DNA of 64,000 nucleotides from Cyanobacteria bacterium PR.3.49 (GTDB lineage Bacteria > Cyanobacteriota > Vampirovibrionia > Obscuribacterales > Obscuribacteraceae): NCBI GenBank assembly GCA_013997645.1, contig PNKB01000004.1:1-64000 (forward strand). The letters are read 5' to 3'. Below, piece after piece: positions 12,805 to 50,800 of this stretch; position 1 is the stretch's first letter, and each line of letters begins with the position of its first letter. Below the pieces are notes generated by a model that saw only the letters and a program-made list of their open reading frames with translations, had not been told where the DNA came from and did not search any database. The position numbers and the translations under genes are program-made.

Positions 12805-12974
12805 AGCTTCACCCTGCTTACTCGCAAGCCAACCGCAAGAATAACACCTTGAAATTCCCCCAAAATCCCATCGGAACGATGCCGCTCAGCCAAGCCCGCT
12901 GAACCTACGTACTTCCACCAGTGACTGAGGCGCGCGCGAGCAATAGCATGTCTAAGCCTCCCGGGAGAAAAGCC

Positions 12975-13679
12975 ATGTCAGTCCGAATCCGCGCCGTCGC
13001 CGCCACCTGCATTCTTTCCCTTTGCCTGTTTCAGTTGCCCGCATTTTCACAGCAGCTGACCAAAGAAGAAGAAGTCGCCGCGCAAAACTTCAACGGCATC
13101 GACATCACGGTCCCCTCACCGGCCGGGCAAAACAACAGCATGATGTCCCCAGCGGCAGGCGGGCAGAACTTCAACCAGGTCATGAGCCAAAACGCATTCG
13201 GCAACAGCATGATGCAAAACGGCTTGCAATCTAATCTCAACAATCAAAACACGCAGCTTGGCCAGGTCGGCATGTTCAACAACGGCCAAATGAACACCGG
13301 CATGCCGAATCAGTTCACCAACGGCATGAACATGGGCGCGGGCAACATGCCCGGCATGAGCGGCGGCATGCAAAACAACTTCAACCAGAACCAAAACAGC
13401 GATTTCATGGGCAACGCCATGGGCGCCAATTTCAACGGCGCCATGCAGGGAAACTGCAATAGCGGCATGAATAGCGGCATGAGTAACGGCGGCGGAATAG
13501 TCCAATCGATCGGAAACAGCATCATGAGCGATCCGAAACTGATGCAGCGAGCCGCCGGTGTAGCCGGTGCAGCCGCTCTATTGGGAGTATTCGTCGGCAA
13601 CGGCGGCATCGGTGGCATGATGCGTTCGGCAGGAATTGACAACACGCGCCACATTCGGGGCTCCGTGGTCGGCTATTAA
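12975..13679 (+). CDS. Secreted Asn/Met/Gly-rich low-complexity protein
   Basis: Signal peptide MSVRIRAVAATCILSLCLFQLPAFSQQ; NNQNTQLGQVGMFNNGQMNTGMPNQFTNGMNMG... tract; hydrophobic Gly-rich C-terminus. Confidence 0.65.
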   Translation: MSVRIRAVAATCILSLCLFQLPAFSQQLTKEEEVAAQNFNGIDITVPSPAGQNNSMMSPAAGGQNFNQVMSQNAFGNSMMQNGLQSNLNNQNTQLGQVGMFNNGQMNTGMPNQFTNGMNMGAGNMPGMSGGMQNNFNQNQNSDFMGNAMGANFNGAMQGNCNSGMNSGMSNGGGIVQSIGNSIMSDPKLMQRAAGVAGAAALLGVFVGNGGIGGMMRSAGIDNTRHIRGSVVGY

Positions 13680-14472: not shown

Positions 14473-14592
14473 GGCCTCTAGCAAGCTGTATCATATGACC
14501 TGTGGCGGCGCCCTCAGGCACTGCGGCCACTCGTTTAGACTTAGACATCCTTCTGAGACCGACCCCTGCAACTCAGTTCGACAGCACGCGGA

Positions 14593-16377
14593 ATGATACT
14601 GGTTCTGGTACCAGTGCTTATCGAGTTGGTTTTTCTGGCCCTCGTCGGTGCAATGCTCTACGACGCCGGCAATGAATATCAAAAACTGCAGCGCTCTCGC
14701 GATGGTTTGATGCGTTTGCACAAGTTTCAAGAAGTCGCAGAACAAGCGCTTTTCTCCCTGGCCAACGAAGAAGTAGTGCCGACAAACGACGACAACAGAT
14801 TGCGCGAAATCGACAACCTGCTGGTGGCTTTAGAAGTCCCGTGGTCGACTATCAATCCAGAGCACCCTGAGCTAAACGCGATCATGCGCGACTCCGAAGA
14901 TGCTCGAATGAATTTGATCGAGCTTTTGAAACAGGTGCGACTGCGATTCCTCAAAAATATGGGCAAGCCCATTCCCCCTGGAAAGTTGCTGCCGAAGTCT
15001 TCCACAATCACGATGTTCATGAATGTCCGCCCGCTCAGCAAGCGCATTATCGCGGTGGAAACGGATATGCTCAACACTGACGCTGGACAGCTGGACACCC
15101 TGTCATGGAAACTCGGATTGCTCCTGGCGGGAGGAGGCATATTCGGGTTTGTCGTCTCGCTTTGCCTGGTTCGCGATTTCACTTCGGTGTTTCTCAATCG
15201 CCTCGGCCTTGTCGCCCAAAAAGCCTTCCTTCTGGCAGGCGGCAAAGAATTGCCCCCGCCCATTGATGGCAATGATGAACTGGCAGAACTCGATCGAGTT
15301 CTTCTGCAAGCGCAGGCCGAGCTGAAAAGCGCTCGCCAAAAGCAATTTGCCATTCTCGACAATGCCAAAGACGTAATCTTCACGCTCGATGCCCGCCTGC
15401 GTTTCATCACTACCGGCGCGGCAGCCAATAAAGTCTGGCACTATTGCGAGGATGAATTGCTCGGACTTTCTGTTCTGACAATTGTCAGCGCACCCACTCA
15501 GGAGGTGACACGCAAACATTTGACGCGACTGGCGGAAACCGGCGGCGACTGCGAGTTTGAAAACGACATCAAATGCAAAGACGGGGCAGTGAAGACTTTT
15601 CTCTGGAAAGTTTCTTTCTCGCCTGAGCAATCCAATTATTTTTGCGTGGCGCACGATGTATCCGACCTCAAAGCTGTTCGACAGCTCAAACAACAGTTCC
15701 TCACAACAGCCAGCGAAGGATTGCGCACACCACTCGATCTGGCCAATTCACTGGTGGGATCGCTTGCTGACCCGGGAGCGAAAAACATTCCGGCCAATGC
15801 CAGAGAAGAGCTAGCCAAGGCAAGTTACAACCTGACCAGATTGAATGAACTTGTCTCTGAGCTGCTCGAATTGGAAGCATTGGAAACAATGAACCGCGAT
15901 ATCGAGAAGGTGCCGGTCAGCGCAAAAGAAATTTGCCGACAAGCTGCTCAAACACTGGAAGCTCTCGCAGGTGCCGGCTCAATAAAGATAGTCCAACCAG
16001 ATCAGGACGCCACTATATTTGGTGACCCGCGAAGATTGGTTCAAGCCCTGATCAATCTGCTCTCTAATGCGATCAAATTCTCGCCGCCCAAATCCACCGT
16101 CAAGCTCTCCGTCGAAAAGAGCAAAGACCGTGTCATTCTCAGCGTTTCCGACGAAGGACCGGGAATCACGCCTGCAGATCAGGCGAACTTATTTGGAAAG
16201 TTTCGCCAGACGACAACGGCAAAAACATCGAAAATCAAAGGCAGCGGGCTGGGGCTGGCACTGGTCAAATCAATCGCCGAAGCGCACGCAGGCGATGCCG
16301 GATACAGACCGGCACCGGAAAAAGGCAGCACATTCTTCATCGCCTTGCCTTTGGCGAGCGAGGATGAACCGCGATGA
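14593..16377 (+). CDS. PAS-containing sensor histidine kinase homolog lacking the phospho-acceptor His
   Basis: N-terminal TM, PAS, H-box region FLTTASEGLRTPL (no His), intact N/G1/G2 boxes (LINLLSNAIKFSP, DEGPGI, KGSGLGLAL). Confidence 0.82.
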   Translation: MILVLVPVLIELVFLALVGAMLYDAGNEYQKLQRSRDGLMRLHKFQEVAEQALFSLANEEVVPTNDDNRLREIDNLLVALEVPWSTINPEHPELNAIMRDSEDARMNLIELLKQVRLRFLKNMGKPIPPGKLLPKSSTITMFMNVRPLSKRIIAVETDMLNTDAGQLDTLSWKLGLLLAGGGIFGFVVSLCLVRDFTSVFLNRLGLVAQKAFLLAGGKELPPPIDGNDELAELDRVLLQAQAELKSARQKQFAILDNAKDVIFTLDARLRFITTGAAANKVWHYCEDELLGLSVLTIVSAPTQEVTRKHLTRLAETGGDCEFENDIKCKDGAVKTFLWKVSFSPEQSNYFCVAHDVSDLKAVRQLKQQFLTTASEGLRTPLDLANSLVGSLADPGAKNIPANAREELAKASYNLTRLNELVSELLELEALETMNRDIEKVPVSAKEICRQAAQTLEALAGAGSIKIVQPDQDATIFGDPRRLVQALINLLSNAIKFSPPKSTVKLSVEKSKDRVILSVSDEGPGITPADQANLFGKFRQTTTAKTSKIKGSGLGLALVKSIAEAHAGDAGYRPAPEKGSTFFIALPLASEDEPR

Positions 16378-18173
16378 AAATGCCGAATCTATTCTGGCGC
16401 GGCATGATCATCACGATGATTCCGTTGCTTTTCCAGCTAATAATCATTGCCTTTCTCGCTCATTACCTGCTGACGATTAAGAACGAGATCCTTCTGGAAT
16501 CAAGGTCGCAAGAGATCATCGCCAGAGCGTTCGTGCTCAATCGCGACGCCATGGAAACAATCTACAACCTGTCCACTACATTCGAGGAATTACCGCAGCA
16601 GCATCCAAAATTGTATGCTGATGACACCGATCCGATTATTACTCTTAACGAAAACCTTCAACGGCTCTTCGATGTCGCGCGTGTAGACGGAGAGTCGGCC
16701 GAGAAAATGCGGGAGCTGTACAGCTGCCACAAACAAGTGATCGAAATGATCAAAGATGCACGAAACCAGGTTTTTCAAAATAGAAGACATCGTCTCAGCG
16801 CCCGCCAGATTTACTTTCGCAAGTTTATTCAAATTGCCGGTGAATACTCGAGTGCAGCTAATTCCATAGTGGCGCTGGAAGAATCCATACAAACAAAACG
16901 TCCCAAAATAATCAGCTCACTGCTCAGCCAGGTTTGGGCAACCCTTTACGCTGCACTGGCAATAAGCGCCTTGCTGGCATTTCTGCTCGGCTACCTATAC
17001 ATCGCGCTGGTTAAACGCCCGCTCAAACGTACCTGCGAAAACGGCAGATTGTTGGCGAAGGGTCAGACTTTGCCGCCGCCGGTCGAAGGCAGCGATGAAC
17101 TGGCTACTCTGGACCGGCTGCTGCATTCAACCGCCGACGCTCTGGAAAAAGTCGAGCAAGACGAAAAGCGACTGGTCGAGAATGCCGCCGATTTGATTTG
17201 TTCTTTATCTCAAGATGGGGCATTCACCAGCGCCAACCCTTTTGCTTTCCGCATGCTGGGCTGGACTCCGGAGAACCTTATGGGGCGGAACTTGCATGAT
17301 TTAACGGTACCGGAAGAGAGTCTTGTTTGTGATGAGAAACTGAGAGAAACGCGCGGTTCGCCGGACATAAAAGTCTTCGACTTGCGCCTGCAAACCGCGA
17401 CAGACACGGTAATAGATACTCGCTGGTCCTGCTTCTGGTCTGAAGCTCAGCATGTTTTCTTCTGCGTAGCTCACGATATTACGGAAACGAGAAACGCCGA
17501 ACGGATGAAACAAGATCTGGTCGACATGATCAGCCACGACCTGCGCAGCCCGCTAACTTCGGTGAGTATCTCTCTGGCAATTTTGTCGAGAGGGGCAAAA
17601 GGAGAATTTCCCGCCGAGGAAAAAAGAAAGCTTGACCTGGCTGGAAAAACAGTCGAACAATTGATTGAGCTGGTAAGCGATCTACTCGATTTCCAAAAAT
17701 TGAACGCGAAAGAAATCGCCCTGGAAACCAGCCATTTCAAGATCAGTCAAATCTGCCAGAAAGCGCTTAAGACAACGGAATCGCATGCCGAAAAGAAAGC
17801 GATCAGCATTGATATTTCCGGAGATGCGCAGTTAAACGGCGACAAGTCCTTGCTCGCGCAGGCCCTGGCGGCTGCTCTGGAGAATGCCGTCAAAGCGGCG
17901 CCGGACGGCTCGACCGTTCGCTGCGAAGTGACAGAAATTGGAGACTTTGTGCAAGTGCGGGTAATAGACGACGGCGAAGGCTTGAGCGACGATGAGATTG
18001 ATCAGATAGCGCTGAGCGTGCCGATGCAAAAGCTCAGCAGCGGAGGCAATCGGTCGCTGCTCAAATTCTCGATCTGCAAAAAAATCGTTGAAGCGCACGA
18101 AGGCAATATCAATTTCTACAACGTCAAACCGCACGGCTGGAGTTTCTCAATGCGACTGCCGGCAGGTGTTTGA
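16374..18173 (+). CDS. PAS-containing sensor histidine kinase homolog with His but degenerate G2 box
   Basis: MISHDLRSPLTSV (His present), LENAVKAAPDG N-box, DDGEGL, but GGNRSLLKFSICKKIVEAH replaces GTGLGLAI; ATGA overlap with upstream gene. Confidence 0.82.
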   Translation: MKMPNLFWRGMIITMIPLLFQLIIIAFLAHYLLTIKNEILLESRSQEIIARAFVLNRDAMETIYNLSTTFEELPQQHPKLYADDTDPIITLNENLQRLFDVARVDGESAEKMRELYSCHKQVIEMIKDARNQVFQNRRHRLSARQIYFRKFIQIAGEYSSAANSIVALEESIQTKRPKIISSLLSQVWATLYAALAISALLAFLLGYLYIALVKRPLKRTCENGRLLAKGQTLPPPVEGSDELATLDRLLHSTADALEKVEQDEKRLVENAADLICSLSQDGAFTSANPFAFRMLGWTPENLMGRNLHDLTVPEESLVCDEKLRETRGSPDIKVFDLRLQTATDTVIDTRWSCFWSEAQHVFFCVAHDITETRNAERMKQDLVDMISHDLRSPLTSVSISLAILSRGAKGEFPAEEKRKLDLAGKTVEQLIELVSDLLDFQKLNAKEIALETSHFKISQICQKALKTTESHAEKKAISIDISGDAQLNGDKSLLAQALAAALENAVKAAPDGSTVRCEVTEIGDFVQVRVIDDGEGLSDDEIDQIALSVPMQKLSSGGNRSLLKFSICKKIVEAHEGNINFYNVKPHGWSFSMRLPAGV

Positions 18174-41784: not shown

Positions 41785-44700
41785 ATGACTGAGCAACAAC
41801 CAGCTCGCAAAAAGCCCGAAGAACCGCCTGTAGACGAAAACGTCAATAAGCCGCTAGATGCCGGAAATAATTCCGATGCAGATTCTGAGGAAACTTTTCG
41901 CGACGCAGATGATGAGCTTGCTGAAGCAGCAGACCCGCCAGAAGCAAAGCTCGAGAGAATTTCCAATCCGGAAGCACTGGATAGAAATGACTATTTGCAA
42001 AGAACACTGATCGAGCTGAATTCTATTTTCAATGAGTTCAAACCGACGGGCCCGGCGGAGAAGCGGCAAGAAGAATTCAGCGCCTGGGTTGCCGGTCTTC
42101 AACAGCAACAACGCGCCCTACAAGCAGAGAGGGATAAGGGCGTCTTTGGTCCGGAAACGGCGAAGGCTTACAAGCAATATCGCGATTGGTTGGAGCAGGC
42201 AGCGGTACCGAATACAGTGCGCACGATGGACAGCTACCAACTGGCGCTTCCGCCCGGATGCCCGCTTAAATTGCCCCTGGACCAGCAGCAGCGAGCGCTG
42301 ACTCCCGAGTTATATAAAGCGATGGCGTCGGCCGGTCAACACAAGCTCGATCTCGGCTTGACCACCGATAGAGTTCCCACAGACGAAGAGCTGGAGCGGC
42401 TCGACAACACTTTCGCCTGGCTGGGACAGTGCCACGATTCTATAAAATCCGCCCACAACAGATTTCGCGACGACTTTCTAATCGGCCAGATTGAAAAGTA
42501 CAATTTGCCTGAAAAATGGCTTAACGGCAGGGAAATTGACCCGGACGCCTGGCGCTCATCCGCCAGCGAAATGGTTGACCTCTCCATGCGCACTCGCAAT
42601 TACGTAGAGGCGATGCAGAGTCTTTTCAAAGACTCGTATTACAGAGACTTTCCTCTTCAGTTCCCGCCCGGGACCAGCATCACCGTCAATGTAGACGGCA
42701 AAAGGCAGACGCTGACCGATCAAGACCTTATCGATCCATCGACCAGAAGTCTTTTGGGCCGCGCCAAAATCGAAAGCATAAAACTCGACTTGCCTGAAGA
42801 TTTGCGCCAGGAAAATCCTGCCAACAAACAAAAGATCGAGCGCTTGCGGCAGTGGCTCGACAAATACGGCGCGGAAATCGACCAAGCAATGGTCGAGTAT
42901 TTCAAGGTGGAGAGCAATCCGGACGCCATTATGATGTACGGCGATCAGGAGTGGAATGGCGGATGGAAAGGGCGCTTTAACGCCAACGATGAATTCCTGG
43001 GCATGGCCGGGCCAGGTCAACCGCCGGGTCCTGGCGAGACGCTCAAGGAAGTCAATCTCACCGGATATGACTTCACGACTGAAACACTTCCAAACGGCAA
43101 TATCAGAATTACACAAACGATTCAGGCCGAACACGCACCGATTTACGCATATCAAAACATCCGCGCTTTCGGCGTTCAGAACGTCGGCAAGAAGATGCCT
43201 GTCGACGTAAAAGAATACGGCCCGGAAGATTGGGTGCCAATCAGGGACGGCGACAAAGTCAGAATGGTTAAGGCGAAAAATGCGGATGAGGCCAGAGCCA
43301 CCCAAAAGGCATGGTACGTGGGCGAAAAGGTGGCAATCGCCGGAGGCGACCTGCTGACCGCGCTTCCACCGACCATGGCATTGGGCGCAATGGCGCTCAC
43401 AGCTCGCACGGCTGCAGTTGCAGGACAGGTGGCTCTCAAGCTGACTGCCAAGCAGGTCGCCTGGGAGCTGACAAAAAATGTCGCCAGAGTAGGCATCGGC
43501 GTGGCAGGCATATTCAACAATGCCGGTGCTCGTGACACGTCCTGGGGCGGTGCGGTCAACACCGCACGCGGAATATATTTCCTCGCCGACATCAGCGCGG
43601 GTCTTGCTGGTTCCGGCCTGCGCTGGGCGAGAGGCGGCGCCAAAGTCGCGCAAGAGATGTCCGGCGCCGAAAAACTTCACACCTTAATTCACGGACGAAA
43701 AGCCGCAGAAGGTGTTGAAGCCCTCGCTGGCATCCCCTACCTAAAACAAGCGCACACCGCTGCCAACTACGGATTTATGGCAGTGGAGGCAAGTTTTGCT
43801 CCGATTTTGTACAACGAATTCAGCCACGGCATCGACCAAATCGCCAATGGACATCGCGATCATTTGCGCGATGCAAAAATGCAAATCGGTGATGGGCGCG
43901 GCTTGCAACAAGCGGAGAAAAACAGTTTTGACCCGTCCGTAAAGCGAAATCTGGAAGGCGCGCATCAATTGCTGGACAACTGGGCCGAAACGCTCATGGA
44001 TGGCAGAAAGCCAGAGACCCAGGCGAAACTGCAAGAAATTTTCGCCAGTACCAAACGCTTGATGGGTCCGCTCGCCACCGATGAGCAAAGAGCTCAGTAT
44101 CGGCAAGAACTGCTTCGCAACACAACCTTCACGGGTGCAGAGATTCAGCGCATCGAAAATACTTACGCTGAGCAAATCAATTCGTCGACCTACCAGCTGA
44201 GCGATCAGCAAGTGCACGATCTCATGGATCCCCTCAAGCGAAGGGAGTTTCCAAAAACAGTGCGGGAGATGGCGGAGAAAATTCTTTCCGAAAAAGATGC
44301 CGATGTGGTGGCAGCGTCGCACCTGGCGCTACTCTATTTGTCCCGCGACAAAGATGGTTCCATCAGCGAACAGCTCGCCAAAGCGCCTATCAAGGTTGAA
44401 CAGTACAGCAGAGCACATGAAGTCTATAACGACCATGGCTCTACGACGACATGGGTAACGATGAGAGCGCGTGATGTCGAAGCGCACATGTCGGCAGCAG
44501 AGTCCGTGGAGAGCTTAAAGCGAGATCTCGAATCGAAGACACTGGGCAATCGCGGCATTGTTACCGGAGATGCTCTGGTTCGAATCGGCGCGCTCACCCA
44601 CCAGCAATATGGCGGTGTTCTGCAAGATGTGCTGAGCAGTCCAACGAGCAGCAAGTCAGATAAAATGCGAGCTTTGACGGATCCGATGAGTTCGCGATTC

Positions 44701-47259
44701 GCAGCCATAGTCGATGGCATACGACACCAGGAGACAGGTCTCGACGGCGAACCCTCCAGCGAAGCGAAAGACCGTTCGCTGGGCAAAAGTTTCGGACTTT
44801 CCTCGCAAAACATTTTGCGCACTCTGGAGGAAACAGCAAAAGGAGATGCAGATCCTGATGTACGCGCAATGGCCGCGGCATTGGTGCACGGGCTCAGGGA
44901 GAAAGAAGCTTCCGATCGCGGTGCACTTTTGACTACCTACAACCAAGCCTGGCAGGCGATGAAAAATCAACCGGCAGGAACTTTCGCTGCGCAAATCACA
45001 GCACACCTGAAAACCGCAGCAGATCTGAAGGTCGACGAAGGGGCCCCGGACAAAGAATTGCAACGCGGACGCAAAATGAATGCGGCACTTTCTCTGGCGA
45101 TGATGGCAAACCCAGATGACAAAGCGACGCAAGTCGCCATCAGCCGCGCCATTGCGGACTGTTTCAGCGCCGAAAATTTCACGATGAATTTGCAAGTCAT
45201 GCAAGAACTAATTCCAGCTCGCATGAAAGAACTCACTCAACACGACCCGGAAACCGCTAACAGACTGAGACAAAAGGCAATCGACTTCTTGCGAGTGCCC
45301 GATAGCGTCGATCAAATGCCTCAGATGACCGGCATTATGCAGCGCATGAAATCGCTGGTGTACGACTCTGCCGAAAGCGACACGAAGTCGCGCGCCGCAT
45401 TCGTGCAACAGCTCGCCACAAAATATAAGGACATGCTCGATCCCTCGCGCCCGCGTGACTACGCACAATACAGTCCGGACATTCGCGCCGCTGCTATTCA
45501 GGGATTGGCAGAGTTGGGCGCCAGAGATCCAAACACTCTCGCGCTCATGCACAGATATATCACTGCGGCTCCAACCTACAGTCTCAGCGGAAAAACAGTT
45601 GAAGCCGGCGAGCAAGATGCGCGGGTGCGCTCGGCAGCGGTCTATGCGCTGCAGCGGCTCAACGATGCCGAATTCAAGTCGGCGATTCTCGACCTCATCG
45701 ACAGAGAAACGGACCCGCAAGTCGCGCAGCAGCTCAAAGATGTCGAATTCAACACGCGTCGCATCGAGCCTGATTCGCGCGAGTACAAACAGATGTTCGA
45801 AGAAACGCTCAAAGAGCTGATCGATCCGGCATCCACCGCGAAATACAGCTACCTGAAAGATTGGGGCGACGCAAAAACATTAGAGTGGTTGGGCGCCAAC
45901 TTCCCCAATATGCAAATCGATGACTTCATGCGCGCCACCAACGCCAAGGCTCAAGGAACACTGCCGATCACACGCTTTTGGAGCCACAAGGAAACAGAAG
46001 CGTATGAAGAATACAAAATCATCTCCAAGGCAAGCGATGCTCGCTGGGCGCAATGGCAAAGTCTGACCGAACTGGCCAGAGGTGACGGAGAAGAAGCCAA
46101 CAAGGCAAAAATGGCTCTGGCATACATTCTCAACCATCCCGACTACATGGGCGAGCCGGGGCTGACGCTGAAATTCGAAGGCGACAAATTCAAGCAAGGC
46201 GTGGCCGATTCGTGGAGACGACAATACAACCACGATTACGCAGAGATGGCAGCTCGCGCTTTAACCGAGTGTGCGGCCCCTGGAAGCGGCGGTCGCGATC
46301 TCACTGCACACATCATCCGCATGGGTCTCAACTACCAACAAAACATGACTCCGCAGGTGAGTTATGAACTTCTGAAGGGCTGGAAACGGCTCGCCGAACG
46401 CAGCGACAAACTTGATGCAGCGGACGAAAGAATGTTCAAACAGCAACTTTTCGAGCAATGGAAAAAGCTTGGAAAAGTTCAAGGTCAACCCAATTCCAAT
46501 CAGGAGCAGCGCCTGCAAACCGAGCTGTATGACAGGTGGAGAGCGCTATCTACACGCACAGACAAACTCAACGCGGAAGAAGAACAGTTGCGTTCATTGG
46601 GCAGCACTTTCAAACCGCCGCTGTTCGCCATGACCAGAGAGCGCGTCGCTAATGTGACGGCCAAGGCGCTCGAAATCGAGCTTTTGCGCAATCCGGGCAA
46701 CCAGTGCGAATGGTATCAACAAGAGTTGATCGAACAACTCAAACAACAGCAGCACAGGATGGTATTCCCTGTCATAGAAGCCCTCGCGAAGAGCTCGAAC
46801 TTCCCAGGCGTGCGCGCCGACGCCGAAAGAATGCTTGCCGACCTTCGAGACTCAGTCTCACTTATGTGGAGAAACACCACACCCGATCTCAGAACGCCAT
46901 CGGAGGATAGAGCGCAAGCGCTCAAGAAAGCATTGCAAATCACTCAAAGCGGCGACAAACAAACAGGCAAGAACATCGAGACCACCGTGCAAGAAATCTT
47001 CAACGCCACTGCCGGCTTGGACTTGAAGCCCGGCGACCCGTGCTTGAACTATCTCTCTCTGGCAATGAACGAGCAAGCTGAAAGAGTGCGGCTGGCGGCC
47101 GCCATGGTTGTAGCGCAATCAAAACTTGATGCGAGCAATCCGGAGAAACAAAAGGCGATCGGAGTACTCCAGCAGCTCGCAGCGAATGGCTCAAAAGCAG
47201 GCTACAAGAAAGATGCCGCCGAGCTTTTGGTGGCATTAAGAGCAGCGGCGGCTCGTTAG
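41785..47259 (+). CDS. Very large (1824 aa) HEAT-like repeat protein with central hydrophobic segment
   Basis: Single uninterrupted ORF; C-terminal helical repeats such as DARVRSAAVYALQRLNDAEFKSAILDLIDRETDPQVAQQL; Ala-rich hydrophobic segment near VAIAGGDLLTALPPTMALGAMALTARTAAVAGQ. Confidence 0.8.
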   Translation: MTEQQPARKKPEEPPVDENVNKPLDAGNNSDADSEETFRDADDELAEAADPPEAKLERISNPEALDRNDYLQRTLIELNSIFNEFKPTGPAEKRQEEFSAWVAGLQQQQRALQAERDKGVFGPETAKAYKQYRDWLEQAAVPNTVRTMDSYQLALPPGCPLKLPLDQQQRALTPELYKAMASAGQHKLDLGLTTDRVPTDEELERLDNTFAWLGQCHDSIKSAHNRFRDDFLIGQIEKYNLPEKWLNGREIDPDAWRSSASEMVDLSMRTRNYVEAMQSLFKDSYYRDFPLQFPPGTSITVNVDGKRQTLTDQDLIDPSTRSLLGRAKIESIKLDLPEDLRQENPANKQKIERLRQWLDKYGAEIDQAMVEYFKVESNPDAIMMYGDQEWNGGWKGRFNANDEFLGMAGPGQPPGPGETLKEVNLTGYDFTTETLPNGNIRITQTIQAEHAPIYAYQNIRAFGVQNVGKKMPVDVKEYGPEDWVPIRDGDKVRMVKAKNADEARATQKAWYVGEKVAIAGGDLLTALPPTMALGAMALTARTAAVAGQVALKLTAKQVAWELTKNVARVGIGVAGIFNNAGARDTSWGGAVNTARGIYFLADISAGLAGSGLRWARGGAKVAQEMSGAEKLHTLIHGRKAAEGVEALAGIPYLKQAHTAANYGFMAVEASFAPILYNEFSHGIDQIANGHRDHLRDAKMQIGDGRGLQQAEKNSFDPSVKRNLEGAHQLLDNWAETLMDGRKPETQAKLQEIFASTKRLMGPLATDEQRAQYRQELLRNTTFTGAEIQRIENTYAEQINSSTYQLSDQQVHDLMDPLKRREFPKTVREMAEKILSEKDADVVAASHLALLYLSRDKDGSISEQLAKAPIKVEQYSRAHEVYNDHGSTTTWVTMRARDVEAHMSAAESVESLKRDLESKTLGNRGIVTGDALVRIGALTHQQYGGVLQDVLSSPTSSKSDKMRALTDPMSSRFAAIVDGIRHQETGLDGEPSSEAKDRSLGKSFGLSSQNILRTLEETAKGDADPDVRAMAAALVHGLREKEASDRGALLTTYNQAWQAMKNQPAGTFAAQITAHLKTAADLKVDEGAPDKELQRGRKMNAALSLAMMANPDDKATQVAISRAIADCFSAENFTMNLQVMQELIPARMKELTQHDPETANRLRQKAIDFLRVPDSVDQMPQMTGIMQRMKSLVYDSAESDTKSRAAFVQQLATKYKDMLDPSRPRDYAQYSPDIRAAAIQGLAELGARDPNTLALMHRYITAAPTYSLSGKTVEAGEQDARVRSAAVYALQRLNDAEFKSAILDLIDRETDPQVAQQLKDVEFNTRRIEPDSREYKQMFEETLKELIDPASTAKYSYLKDWGDAKTLEWLGANFPNMQIDDFMRATNAKAQGTLPITRFWSHKETEAYEEYKIISKASDARWAQWQSLTELARGDGEEANKAKMALAYILNHPDYMGEPGLTLKFEGDKFKQGVADSWRRQYNHDYAEMAARALTECAAPGSGGRDLTAHIIRMGLNYQQNMTPQVSYELLKGWKRLAERSDKLDAADERMFKQQLFEQWKKLGKVQGQPNSNQEQRLQTELYDRWRALSTRTDKLNAEEEQLRSLGSTFKPPLFAMTRERVANVTAKALEIELLRNPGNQCEWYQQELIEQLKQQQHRMVFPVIEALAKSSNFPGVRADAERMLADLRDSVSLMWRNTTPDLRTPSEDRAQALKKALQITQSGDKQTGKNIETTVQEIFNATAGLDLKPGDPCLNYLSLAMNEQAERVRLAAAMVVAQSKLDASNPEKQKAIGVLQQLAANGSKAGYKKDAAELLVALRAAAAR

Positions 47260-47273
47260 GAAAACCAACTCAA

Positions 47274-47684
47274 TTATGATTTGACCAACCACTTTTTCAA
47301 TTTCTCGGCAAATTCGTCGAGTGTAAAGGGCTTTGCCAAATAGTCGTCCATTCCGGATGCCAAACACTTCTCGCGATCACCAGGCATGACGCAGGCTGTG
47401 ACGCCAATTATTGGCACGTGGCGGTCTGTATTTTTTTCCAATTCCCTGATCTTCCTCGTGCACTCTAGCCCGTCCATTTTGGGCATCATTACATCCATGA
47501 GAATTGCGTCGAATTGATATGTCTCGACCGACTCCAGCGCTTCTTCACCGTTGCCGACCACGTGTGCCGTTATGCCTACCCGTTCGGCCAGGAGTTTGAA
47601 AAGCTGTTGTTGACTTGCGTGGTCATCGACAACCAGCACAAGCGGCAGGGGTTTGGCAGTTTCCTGCACCGAAGTGTCATTCAT
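47274..47684 (-). CDS. CheY-like single-domain response regulator
   Basis: VLVVDDHASQQQLF; DAILMDVMMPKMDGLE; GVTACVM; DDYLAKPF. Confidence 0.9.
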   Translation of the reverse strand: MNDTSVQETAKPLPLVLVVDDHASQQQLFKLLAERVGITAHVVGNGEEALESVETYQFDAILMDVMMPKMDGLECTRKIRELEKNTDRHVPIIGVTACVMPGDREKCLASGMDDYLAKPFTLDEFAEKLKKWLVKS

Positions 47685-47902: not shown

Positions 47903-50800
47903 TTACGAGCCGCTTACACCGGCACGCTCAGGAGCTATGTACTCTTCTCTCGGTCGAGTAGCGAGGTAGAGACCCAAAGCAGCACTGGCAATGATGGCGA
48001 CGCCAAACGCACCGCTCTTCACCTCGCCCAACTTGAATCCTCCAGTCGGTCTGGAAGCGGCCATCTTCTCAATCAGCGCTTTATGCACTTCGGGTTTGTG
48101 CAGGTTTTCCAGCACGTAGCGATGAGCTGCGAGTTCGACTCTTTCTTTCGCTTCGAGCTTGTTGGTTTTCTCTCTTGCTTCGAGGTCCCGTACACGGTTC
48201 TCCAGCATCTTCACTTCATCGGCGACGAGCAGTTCCTTCGCAGTGGCTTCGGTTCCAATCAGTCGAGCACCTACGGATTCCCGATTGCGTGTCATGGTTC
48301 CGTCAGGATTCGCGGTTTGCTCCACGCCGCTGATTCTTTCAGCGCTCGGTCCCGAACCACGACGCGGTCTTCTTGGCGCTTCAGTTTCCACCGGCTTAAC
48401 TTCAGCCACAGGTGCTCCGGAAGCCGGGTTCAACAGTGACTTAACTACCTGCGAACCCATCGGTCGAGCTTCGATTCCTTCCATCTTGAACAAGAAACCA
48501 TTTCCGGCACCCGGCTCCATGCTTTGTTTTCCATCCATCGGTATGTATTGATAGATAGAGTTCGAGCCTGCCTTCTGGAAGAATACGCCTTTCTCACCGG
48601 CAACCTCAACGCGATTGTAGGTGGCGCTATCAAATGCCTGTCGAGTCGTTCCCATTTTCGTACCGGCTTCATTTTTCACGACAACCCGACCATCGACTTT
48701 GCCGACCGCTCTCCAGGTTTCTCCGCCTACGCTCGTGGTCTGATCAACTGTGATGCCGGAAACAATCTCGGCTCCAGGAGTTGGACGGAATCTGCTTTCG
48801 GCTGCAGGAGCTTCAGTTGCTGGGCGTTGCTCAGCTGGTGGGTTTTCCGTCGCGGGGCGTTGCTCCGCTGGCGGGTTTTCAGTTGCTGGACGTTGCTCCG
48901 CTGGTGGGTTCTCCGTCGCCGGGCGCTGCTCAGCCGGCGGGTTTTCCGTCGCTGGACGTTGCTCCGCTGGCGGATTCTCAGTCGCCGGGCGCTGCTCCGC
49001 TGGTGGGTTTTCCGTCGCGGGGCGTTGCTCCGCTGGTGGGTTCTCCGTCGCCGGGCGCTGCTCCGCTGGCGGATTCTCAGTAGCTGGACGTTTCTTGGCT
49101 TCTCGCTCAGCAGCCAGTCTTTGCTCTTCGGCTAATCTTTGCTCCGCAGCCAAACGCTCTGCATTTCTTTGCTCGGTGGCAACTCGCTCCGCTTCGACCT
49201 TCGCCGTACGTTCTGCCGGCGTCATCCAAGATGTTTTGTCGACCTCGGTCGGCGTCCGCCAGTTTTGCTTAAACTCTTTATCCGTCAGCAGTTTCACTTC
49301 GCCGTTCTCAGTCACGGCCCACATCTTGCGATCGGCTTGTTTTCCAAGACCCAGTTCGCCATTCAGTTCCTTGAGGTCAGGAAGTTGCACAGCTTTCGCG
49401 CGCTCGGCGGTTGTACTCTTGTATTCGCCTGGCTTGGCGGTTTCCGTGTACCGTTCTTTGAACTCGGCTTCCGTCAAGTAAGCTTCTTTGCCGTCACGAC
49501 CGGTGACTTTGTACTTGCCTGCATGCTCGCCTTCTTTTATTTGCTCTGCTTTCACCATGGTATCGCGGGCCACATCCTGACCGGAGCGCTCAATGGCTTC
49601 GCGCAATCTGGCAGCGTTTTCAGGATTTTGTGCAAGAGCTTCATTACCTTGATTGCGCGAGCGCTCAGCGGCGATTCTGCTGCCTTGCTGAAACAACCGA
49701 TAGCCCATATAACCGGCGGTGGCTGCGGCAAGCAACTTTTGCGTGTCGGTCAAACTGTCCCATACGCCTTTGTCGACACCCTTGGGCGGCTCTTGTGCGG
49801 GCGGAGTGAAATCTTCCACCGGCTGTTGGGATGGTGGAAGCGCGTCACTAGGCGTTTCCGGTCCGCGGACGAAAGGAGGAATTACGATTGGCGGCACCTG
49901 GTCACCAGGTTGTGGGCCGACCTGTGCTTCGCCACCAGGAACGTGGAAAAATCCTGGATTGCCGTCAGCAGGCACGTGTCCGTCTGGTCCTCGTCCAGGT
50001 CTTCCGGGAGCGCCCGGTCCTCTTTGTGGAATTCCACCAGGCACACCTGTGTTGCCGTCACCGGACCACTGGTAGGGATCATTCGGTCCGAGCGAACCGC
50101 CGTTCAGCGCGCGATCTCGATTAGCTATCGCCGCTTTCTTTGCGGCTTCGGCAGCGTCCCAAAAATGTTTGTTATTCGCCAATTCCGGACGCAGTTTCAA
50201 CGCGTCTTCCACCAGCTCACGCCCCTGCTTCATCAACCTGTCATTGCCGGTGCTGATCAAGGCAAAACCAGCATTGGCTCTTGTAGTTCCAGGAGCTAAA
50301 TAGTCGGCAGTGATATCGCGCAGTTCAGCTTTCAACTTTTGTTGCTGCTGAAGAAGTCCGTTGATTTGTTCTTGCGTGTCACCGGCAGCTTTCGCTTTCG
50401 CTATCTGAGTTTCAAGCTGGTTTTGCGCCGCGAAATTAGTTTTACCGCGCGCCACAGTTTCGACCTGATTAATAGAATCAGCGGCCTTGATGTCTTCGCG
50501 ATAAGGCACGAGCGCTTTGGGAACACTGTACAGCAGCTTGATCTCGCGCTGCATCGCCAGTTCTTTTGCCGGTCCTTCCGGCATATCCTCAATGCGACGC
50601 TCAGACGGGCCCAACTGCTGAAACCACTCTGCGCCCGGCGGTTGGAAGGACAACTGCCCACTGTTGTCGCTAGCCGCAACTGGACCATTCGTTTGATCGA
50701 CTTTCGGCAGCGGCCTCGAAAACTGGTAAAGATCAGGGTTCGGCAAATCCTCTTCTGCAGGAGCATTTGCTGGTCTGGTATCAATTTCAGTTGGAGCCAT
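47903..50800 (-). CDS. Large (965 aa) repeat-containing, likely tail-anchored protein
   Basis: Eight in-frame 11-aa PPAEQRPATEN repeats, Pro/Gly-rich region, C-terminal TM (FGVAIIASAALGLYLATRP). Confidence 0.8.
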   Translation of the reverse strand: MAPTEIDTRPANAPAEEDLPNPDLYQFSRPLPKVDQTNGPVAASDNSGQLSFQPPGAEWFQQLGPSERRIEDMPEGPAKELAMQREIKLLYSVPKALVPYREDIKAADSINQVETVARGKTNFAAQNQLETQIAKAKAAGDTQEQINGLLQQQQKLKAELRDITADYLAPGTTRANAGFALISTGNDRLMKQGRELVEDALKLRPELANNKHFWDAAEAAKKAAIANRDRALNGGSLGPNDPYQWSGDGNTGVPGGIPQRGPGAPGRPGRGPDGHVPADGNPGFFHVPGGEAQVGPQPGDQVPPIVIPPFVRGPETPSDALPPSQQPVEDFTPPAQEPPKGVDKGVWDSLTDTQKLLAAATAGYMGYRLFQQGSRIAAERSRNQGNEALAQNPENAARLREAIERSGQDVARDTMVKAEQIKEGEHAGKYKVTGRDGKEAYLTEAEFKERYTETAKPGEYKSTTAERAKAVQLPDLKELNGELGLGKQADRKMWAVTENGEVKLLTDKEFKQNWRTPTEVDKTSWMTPAERTAKVEAERVATEQRNAERLAAEQRLAEEQRLAAEREAKKRPATENPPAEQRPATENPPAEQRPATENPPAEQRPATENPPAEQRPATENPPAEQRPATENPPAEQRPATENPPAEQRPATENPPAEQRPATEAPAAESRFRPTPGAEIVSGITVDQTTSVGGETWRAVGKVDGRVVVKNEAGTKMGTTRQAFDSATYNRVEVAGEKGVFFQKAGSNSIYQYIPMDGKQSMEPGAGNGFLFKMEGIEARPMGSQVVKSLLNPASGAPVAEVKPVETEAPRRPRRGSGPSAERISGVEQTANPDGTMTRNRESVGARLIGTEATAKELLVADEVKMLENRVRDLEAREKTNKLEAKERVELAAHRYVLENLHKPEVHKALIEKMAASRPTGGFKLGEVKSGAFGVAIIASAALGLYLATRPREEYIAPERAGVSGS
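48816..49079. repeat. 33-bp tandem repeat, eight units, coding
   Basis: Units of gtYgcYgggcgYtgctcMgcYggYgggttYtcM read directly; encodes PPAEQRPATEN on the minus strand. Confidence 0.9.

Follow-up and report, generated by a model that had tools for sequence, protein, structure and literature searches.

Two overlapping sensor kinase genes of Cyanobacteria bacterium PR.3.49 carry reciprocal catalytic lesions and are probably (at about 0.8) the two parts of a single asymmetric sensor kinase. In it the first product, subunit A, would use its ATPase to phosphorylate His388 of the second, subunit B, in trans. The genes lie in a stretch of 64,000 nucleotides, the window. The initial annotation had proposed complementary loss with phosphorylation of subunit 2 by subunit 1, and this is still the best-supported reading, given 7/7 pairs, independent contrasts of 8:0, the occurrence of both polarities and the existence of fusions.

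Features of the gene pair

Gene 1 (subunit A, 14593..16377) and gene 2 (subunit B, 16374..18173) are open reading frames for membrane sensor kinases of 594 and 599 aa. They overlap via ATGA, and they and all their features given below are on the + strand. Both have the layout of an N-terminal membrane sensor followed by PAS, HisKA and HATPase_c; the initial annotation's description of two kinase genes with a common layout is thus borne out by the frames and by Pfam.

The PAS domain of gene 1 is at 15349..15654 (residues 253-354). Its HisKA (DHp) domain at 15688..15885 (residues 366-431) is degenerate and scores 21.7 bits, under the curated Pfam cut-off of 26.9 bits. In the alignment the former phospho-acceptor site is occupied by Glu375 (15715..15717), and the acceptor region reads TTASEGLRTPL. 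The N, G1, F and G2 boxes of the HATPase_c domain (16021..16356) are all intact in Pfam match and alignment, in agreement with the earlier description of a gene without acceptor His and with intact N, G1 and G2 boxes. Conservation of the frame extends 5' of the ATG at 14593 (14557-14595), with changes that are synonymous, and the orthologs of gene 1 in genome G001 have a GTG at roughly the same place as the CTG at 14566, which is probably the true start of gene 1.

Gene 2 has its PAS domain at 17166..17480 (residues 265-369) and its HisKA (DHp) domain at 17505..17708 (residues 378-445). The acceptor region is MISHDLRSPL, with the phospho-acceptor His388 at 17535..17537 in a column that is invariant among 30 B-type proteins. 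The HATPase_c domain (17838..18164) is degenerate, with a Pfam match of 60 bits versus 100 bits for gene 1, and its fold is predicted to be kept. As noted earlier, the G2 box (18048..18074) is lost and reads NRSLLKFSI; in addition the F box is gone (IALSVP) and the N box (17862..17897, LAAALENAVKAA) is partly degraded and retains the second Asn alone. G1 is still DDGEG. Gene 1 therefore has the complete set of N, G1, F and G2 boxes and gene 2 does not, having lost F, G2 and part of N; conversely, the acceptor His of an autonomous HisKA kinase is found in gene 2 and, with Glu375 in its place, is absent from gene 1. Combined, the two genes provide one His, one full ATPase, a membrane sensor and PAS, the equipment of a HisKA sensor kinase.

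The ATPase domain (CA) of gene 2 is well conserved within the clade of the window pair and retains the second N-box Asn and the G1 Asp. Because of this conservation and the predicted fold, the broken CA probably has a structural role. Residual nucleotide binding by this domain is possible and would count against the preferred explanation. The full-length models of the two proteins had low pTM values (0.34 and 0.42) and were used for domain folds only; Foldseek searches with the predicted models returned only generic kinase matches.

Genome neighborhood and partner regulators

The neighbors of the pair are largely conserved, with a DUF1573-cytochrome c gene upstream and TPR, putative CsoR-like, pyrB and pyrC genes downstream. 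An Asn/Met/Gly-rich protein without Pfam match (12921-13679) adjoins the pair in most orthologous loci. The CheY-like gene to which the initial annotation had linked the pair is present at 47274-47684, and no support for the link was found. It is only one candidate among many, since the neighborhood comparison revealed no response regulator adjoining the window pair or its syntenic orthologs. Very long open reading frames at 41785-47259 and 47903-50800 (1824 and 965 aa) have no NCBIfam match.

OmpR-type regulators adjoin several lesioned pairs elsewhere (G010:C50, G023:C106, G065:C2 and G023:C290). In G065:C2 the regulator is located 10 bp downstream of the pair. The operon of G010:C50 (L119:1073-4931) starts with an OmpR-type regulator, followed by the His-less kinase A and then by kinase B, which stops right after DHp. 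In the operon of G023:C106 (L213:832-5448) the OmpR-type regulator lies between the complementary partners, after the ATPase-less kinase and before the His-less one. This adjacency supports the view that such pairs would function in two-component systems, each pair acting as a single kinase. A further His-less, ATPase-intact kinase without a clear partner was observed at L184:97-2274 (G014:C78), with an OmpR-type regulator and an intact kinase nearby.

Orthologs and selection

Orthologous pairs were found in genomes G007 (split over two contigs), G006, G004 and G002, and as two tandem pairs in G001. Both lesions are retained in 7/7 pairs, the window pair and the six others; an ortholog with a full catalytic set in either gene, which had been named beforehand as the decisive counterexample, does not occur among them. 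The former His site of A is Glu or Gln, or Asp in G006, and the G2 site of B reads RSLLK[FYL]S. Besides two unrelated kinases, a scan of contigs yielded one close relative, which is evidently the G007 contig.

Between G000 and G007, dN/dS for A is 0.095 in the sensor, 0.066 in PAS, 0.098 in DHp and 0.154 in CA, and for B 0.094, 0.056, 0.062 and 0.052, respectively, all values being rough because dS is near or above 1. At about 0.05-0.15, they clearly point to purifying selection on all domains of the pair. The possibility that the lesions are pseudogene decay of redundant copies under relaxed selection gains some plausibility from the size of the kinase family, with 136 stretches similar to gene 1 in this genome, and from the fact that some of the genomes are incomplete assemblies. 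It is opposed by the intact, overlapping frames, by the low dN/dS, by the retention of the lesions across separately assembled genomes and by their strictly complementary distribution. On the grounds of dN/dS and conservation this reading was rejected, and we consider it very improbable.

Distribution of lesions in the family

Many of the 136 gene 1-like stretches are full length with the same layout, and many of these kinases are arranged as tandem pairs. The tandem-pair kinase family is large, lineage-restricted and mostly canonical. The A and B members of the window type form two separate, mirrored clades, which indicates that both genes were duplicated together. A total of 91 pairs were gathered from genomes of the same bacterial family, mostly fragmented and in some cases incomplete assemblies, and the catalytic residues of every module were read with one profile. 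The 88 fully readable pairs comprise 51 with both partners intact, 34 complementary pairs, with loss confined to the His in one partner and to the ATPase in the other, and 3 with a single lesion; as the pairs were collected by similarity to a few queries, these fractions are no census. The single-lesion pairs (G028:C56, G023:C290 and G070:C142) look like intermediates. Neither a doubly broken module nor the same lesion in both partners was found among the 88. The His-less modules of complementary pairs have no losses (0) at five ATPase key residues, and their partners lose 1-5. Lesions are present in 37/88 pairs versus 3/66 unpaired kinases (Fisher p 3e-8, uncorrected for kinship, with modules at contig breaks set aside by hand).

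In 30 of the 34 complementary pairs the first module is His-less and the second ATPase-less, and in 4 the order is reversed; the idea that the lesions follow gene order was rejected, as both polarities occur. Genome G010 has related pairs of opposite polarity. In C517 A is without ATPase and B without His; in C50, which is additional to the 34, A is without His, and B ends right after DHp, lacks the whole CA domain and is followed by a different open frame on the opposite strand. By its gene structure, C50 represents a putative natural split kinase with the ATPase domain absent from the His-bearing partner.

In 21/34 complementary pairs the partners are fused into one open frame with two kinase layouts, mostly of 1170-1350 aa. 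A search of 292 sampled genomes of the phylum at E 1e-80 revealed no other occurrence of the fused family. Locus L144 (G028:C2:20545-32026) contains three consecutive fused kinase-kinase genes with all six modules canonical.

Kinship inflates the raw number of lesioned pairs, and independent contrasts are the actual test. A module tree from which the CA domain and His columns were left out requires at least 12 changes for His loss and 13 for ATPase loss. On the pair tree, loss of the first His goes with loss of the second ATPase in contrasts of 5:0, and loss of the second His with loss of the first ATPase in contrasts of 3:0 (mean 2.7); loss of the first His together with the first ATPase was seen in no contrast. 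Combined, the contrasts are 8:0 (two-sided sign test about 0.008), either test alone being too small to reach 0.05.

The broken CA domains of fused pairs evolve faster than the intact CA of the partner. In lesioned fused pairs the mean identity between relatives is 0.32 for the broken CA versus 0.64 for the intact CA, and in intact fused pairs it is 0.57 and 0.61; a single comparison of reverse polarity gave 0.51 versus 0.87. For DHp the identities are 0.52 (His-less) and 0.67 (His-bearing), and intact pairs lean likewise (0.62, 0.72).

Comparison with known systems

Kinases in which a His mutant paired with an ATPase mutant regains activity include EnvZ and NtrB, both trans-acting. The same complementation has been obtained in the laboratory with CheA (Swanson et al. 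1993, cited in PMC5956149). Such heterodimers were made from artificial mutants, whereas the pairs described here are a natural, repeatedly evolved state. In Rhodobacter sphaeroides neither CheA3 nor CheA4 autophosphorylates alone, and together CheA3 is phosphorylated (PMC3591291). As in the window pair, acceptor His and ATPase are located on two proteins (PMC3591291). However, these proteins belong to the CheA class, with separate P1 and P4 domains missing as a whole, whereas the window pair consists of full-length tandem HisKA paralogs with point-like lesions; with PAS, HisKA and HATPase_c as its Pfam domains it falls outside the CheA class (P1-P5). Reverse polarity and fusions are found in the family studied here and are absent from CheA3/CheA4.

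Hik36/Hik43 of Synechocystis is likewise a case of two genes making one kinase in a cyanobacterium, but one CheA is split there into two distant genes, without reciprocal decay of paralogs (PMC7656254). HrrS and ChrS of Corynebacterium glutamicum are paralogous kinases that heterodimerize, and the partner with a broken CA affects signaling; they differ from the window pair in having a single, laboratory-evolved lesion and in that the His of the pseudokinase ChrS takes no part in phosphotransfer (PMC9491836). DivL and RetS are also kinase-like proteins that work through another kinase, but their partners are complete kinases without a complementary lesion. None of these systems, as described, has full-length paralogs bearing reciprocal lesions, both polarities, or fusions. 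A literature search that covered mostly journals available without subscription yielded no previous description of tandem HisKA kinases with reciprocal lesions.

Proposed mechanism

Contacts between DHp helices and between membrane sensors would join the paralogous subunits A and B. The CA of subunit A would bind ATP and then phosphorylate His388 of subunit B in trans, and B alone would serve as phosphoryl donor to a response regulator encoded elsewhere; the DHp of A and the CA of B would persist as structural halves. The starting state was probably tandem pairs with both subunits intact, from which the asymmetric state was reached many times in the lineage. Once one partner had lost one part, the matching part of its counterpart would have come under relaxed selection, and in one branch both subunits are joined in a single chain, a proposed pseudo-heterodimer. 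Phosphorylation in cis predicts that His and ATPase survive together in one subunit and that lesions accumulate in the other. The opposite is seen, and a heterodimer acting in trans is therefore the simplest account.

HK853 is a cis enzyme, and by a hand count of spacing the window proteins have the same distance as HK853 from the His to the end of helix 2. This HK853-like spacing is in tension with the trans model, as the choice between cis and trans has been assigned to the DHp loop (PMC5956149). The lesioned pairs show no change in DHp loop length, their main spacings being those of intact modules, so that length does not discriminate between cis and trans.

The lesion pattern by itself equally fits a stable heterodimer and two homodimers acting in sequence, in which gene 1 ATPase homodimers would bind gene 2 homodimers transiently and phosphorylate their His, in the style of a kinase and a phosphotransfer protein. 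CheA3 and CheA4 do operate as two proteins (PMC3591291). Fused single chains, the fixed tandem adjacency and the mirrored trees of A and B favor a 1:1 complex, and sequential homodimers are regarded as unlikely. Gene 1 might also be a pseudokinase that acts by contact only, its ATPase being unused for phosphorylation and the His of gene 2 being phosphorylated by something else. DivL and RetS would be precedents, and the model of gene 2 is a good match to the kinase region of RetS (6dk7_E, TM 0.77 by target length, rmsd 3.5). Yet DivL reportedly works without ATPase domain or acceptor residue, whereas the His-less modules here keep the five ATPase key residues that their partners lose, which argues for use; nor would contact alone predict reciprocal loss in both polarities. 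We give this alternative a slim chance.

The asymmetric kinase acting in trans may be part of a wider pattern. It is an even call whether heterodimers of tandem paralogs are standard in this bacterial family, intact pairs included, with the fusions as previously undescribed one-way, single-chain asymmetric kinases and the whole as a series from symmetric to irreversibly asymmetric forms.

Significance

Histidine kinases are usually viewed as symmetric homodimers, each half of which is fully competent. Natural split kinases such as CheA3/CheA4 are known, but recurrent reciprocal decay of full-length HisKA kinases, in both polarities and with fusions, is new as far as could be found. Evolution has repeatedly left these kinases with the donor function in one half and the acceptor function in the other; this has happened in both polarities, and in covalently joined chains too. 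The family thereby provides a natural experiment on three questions: whether phosphorylation proceeds in trans, how paralogs come to depend on each other as obligate heteromers, and how one signal can be read from two sensors. Annotation based on residues would label dozens of these genes as inactive, although as pairs they are probably functional.
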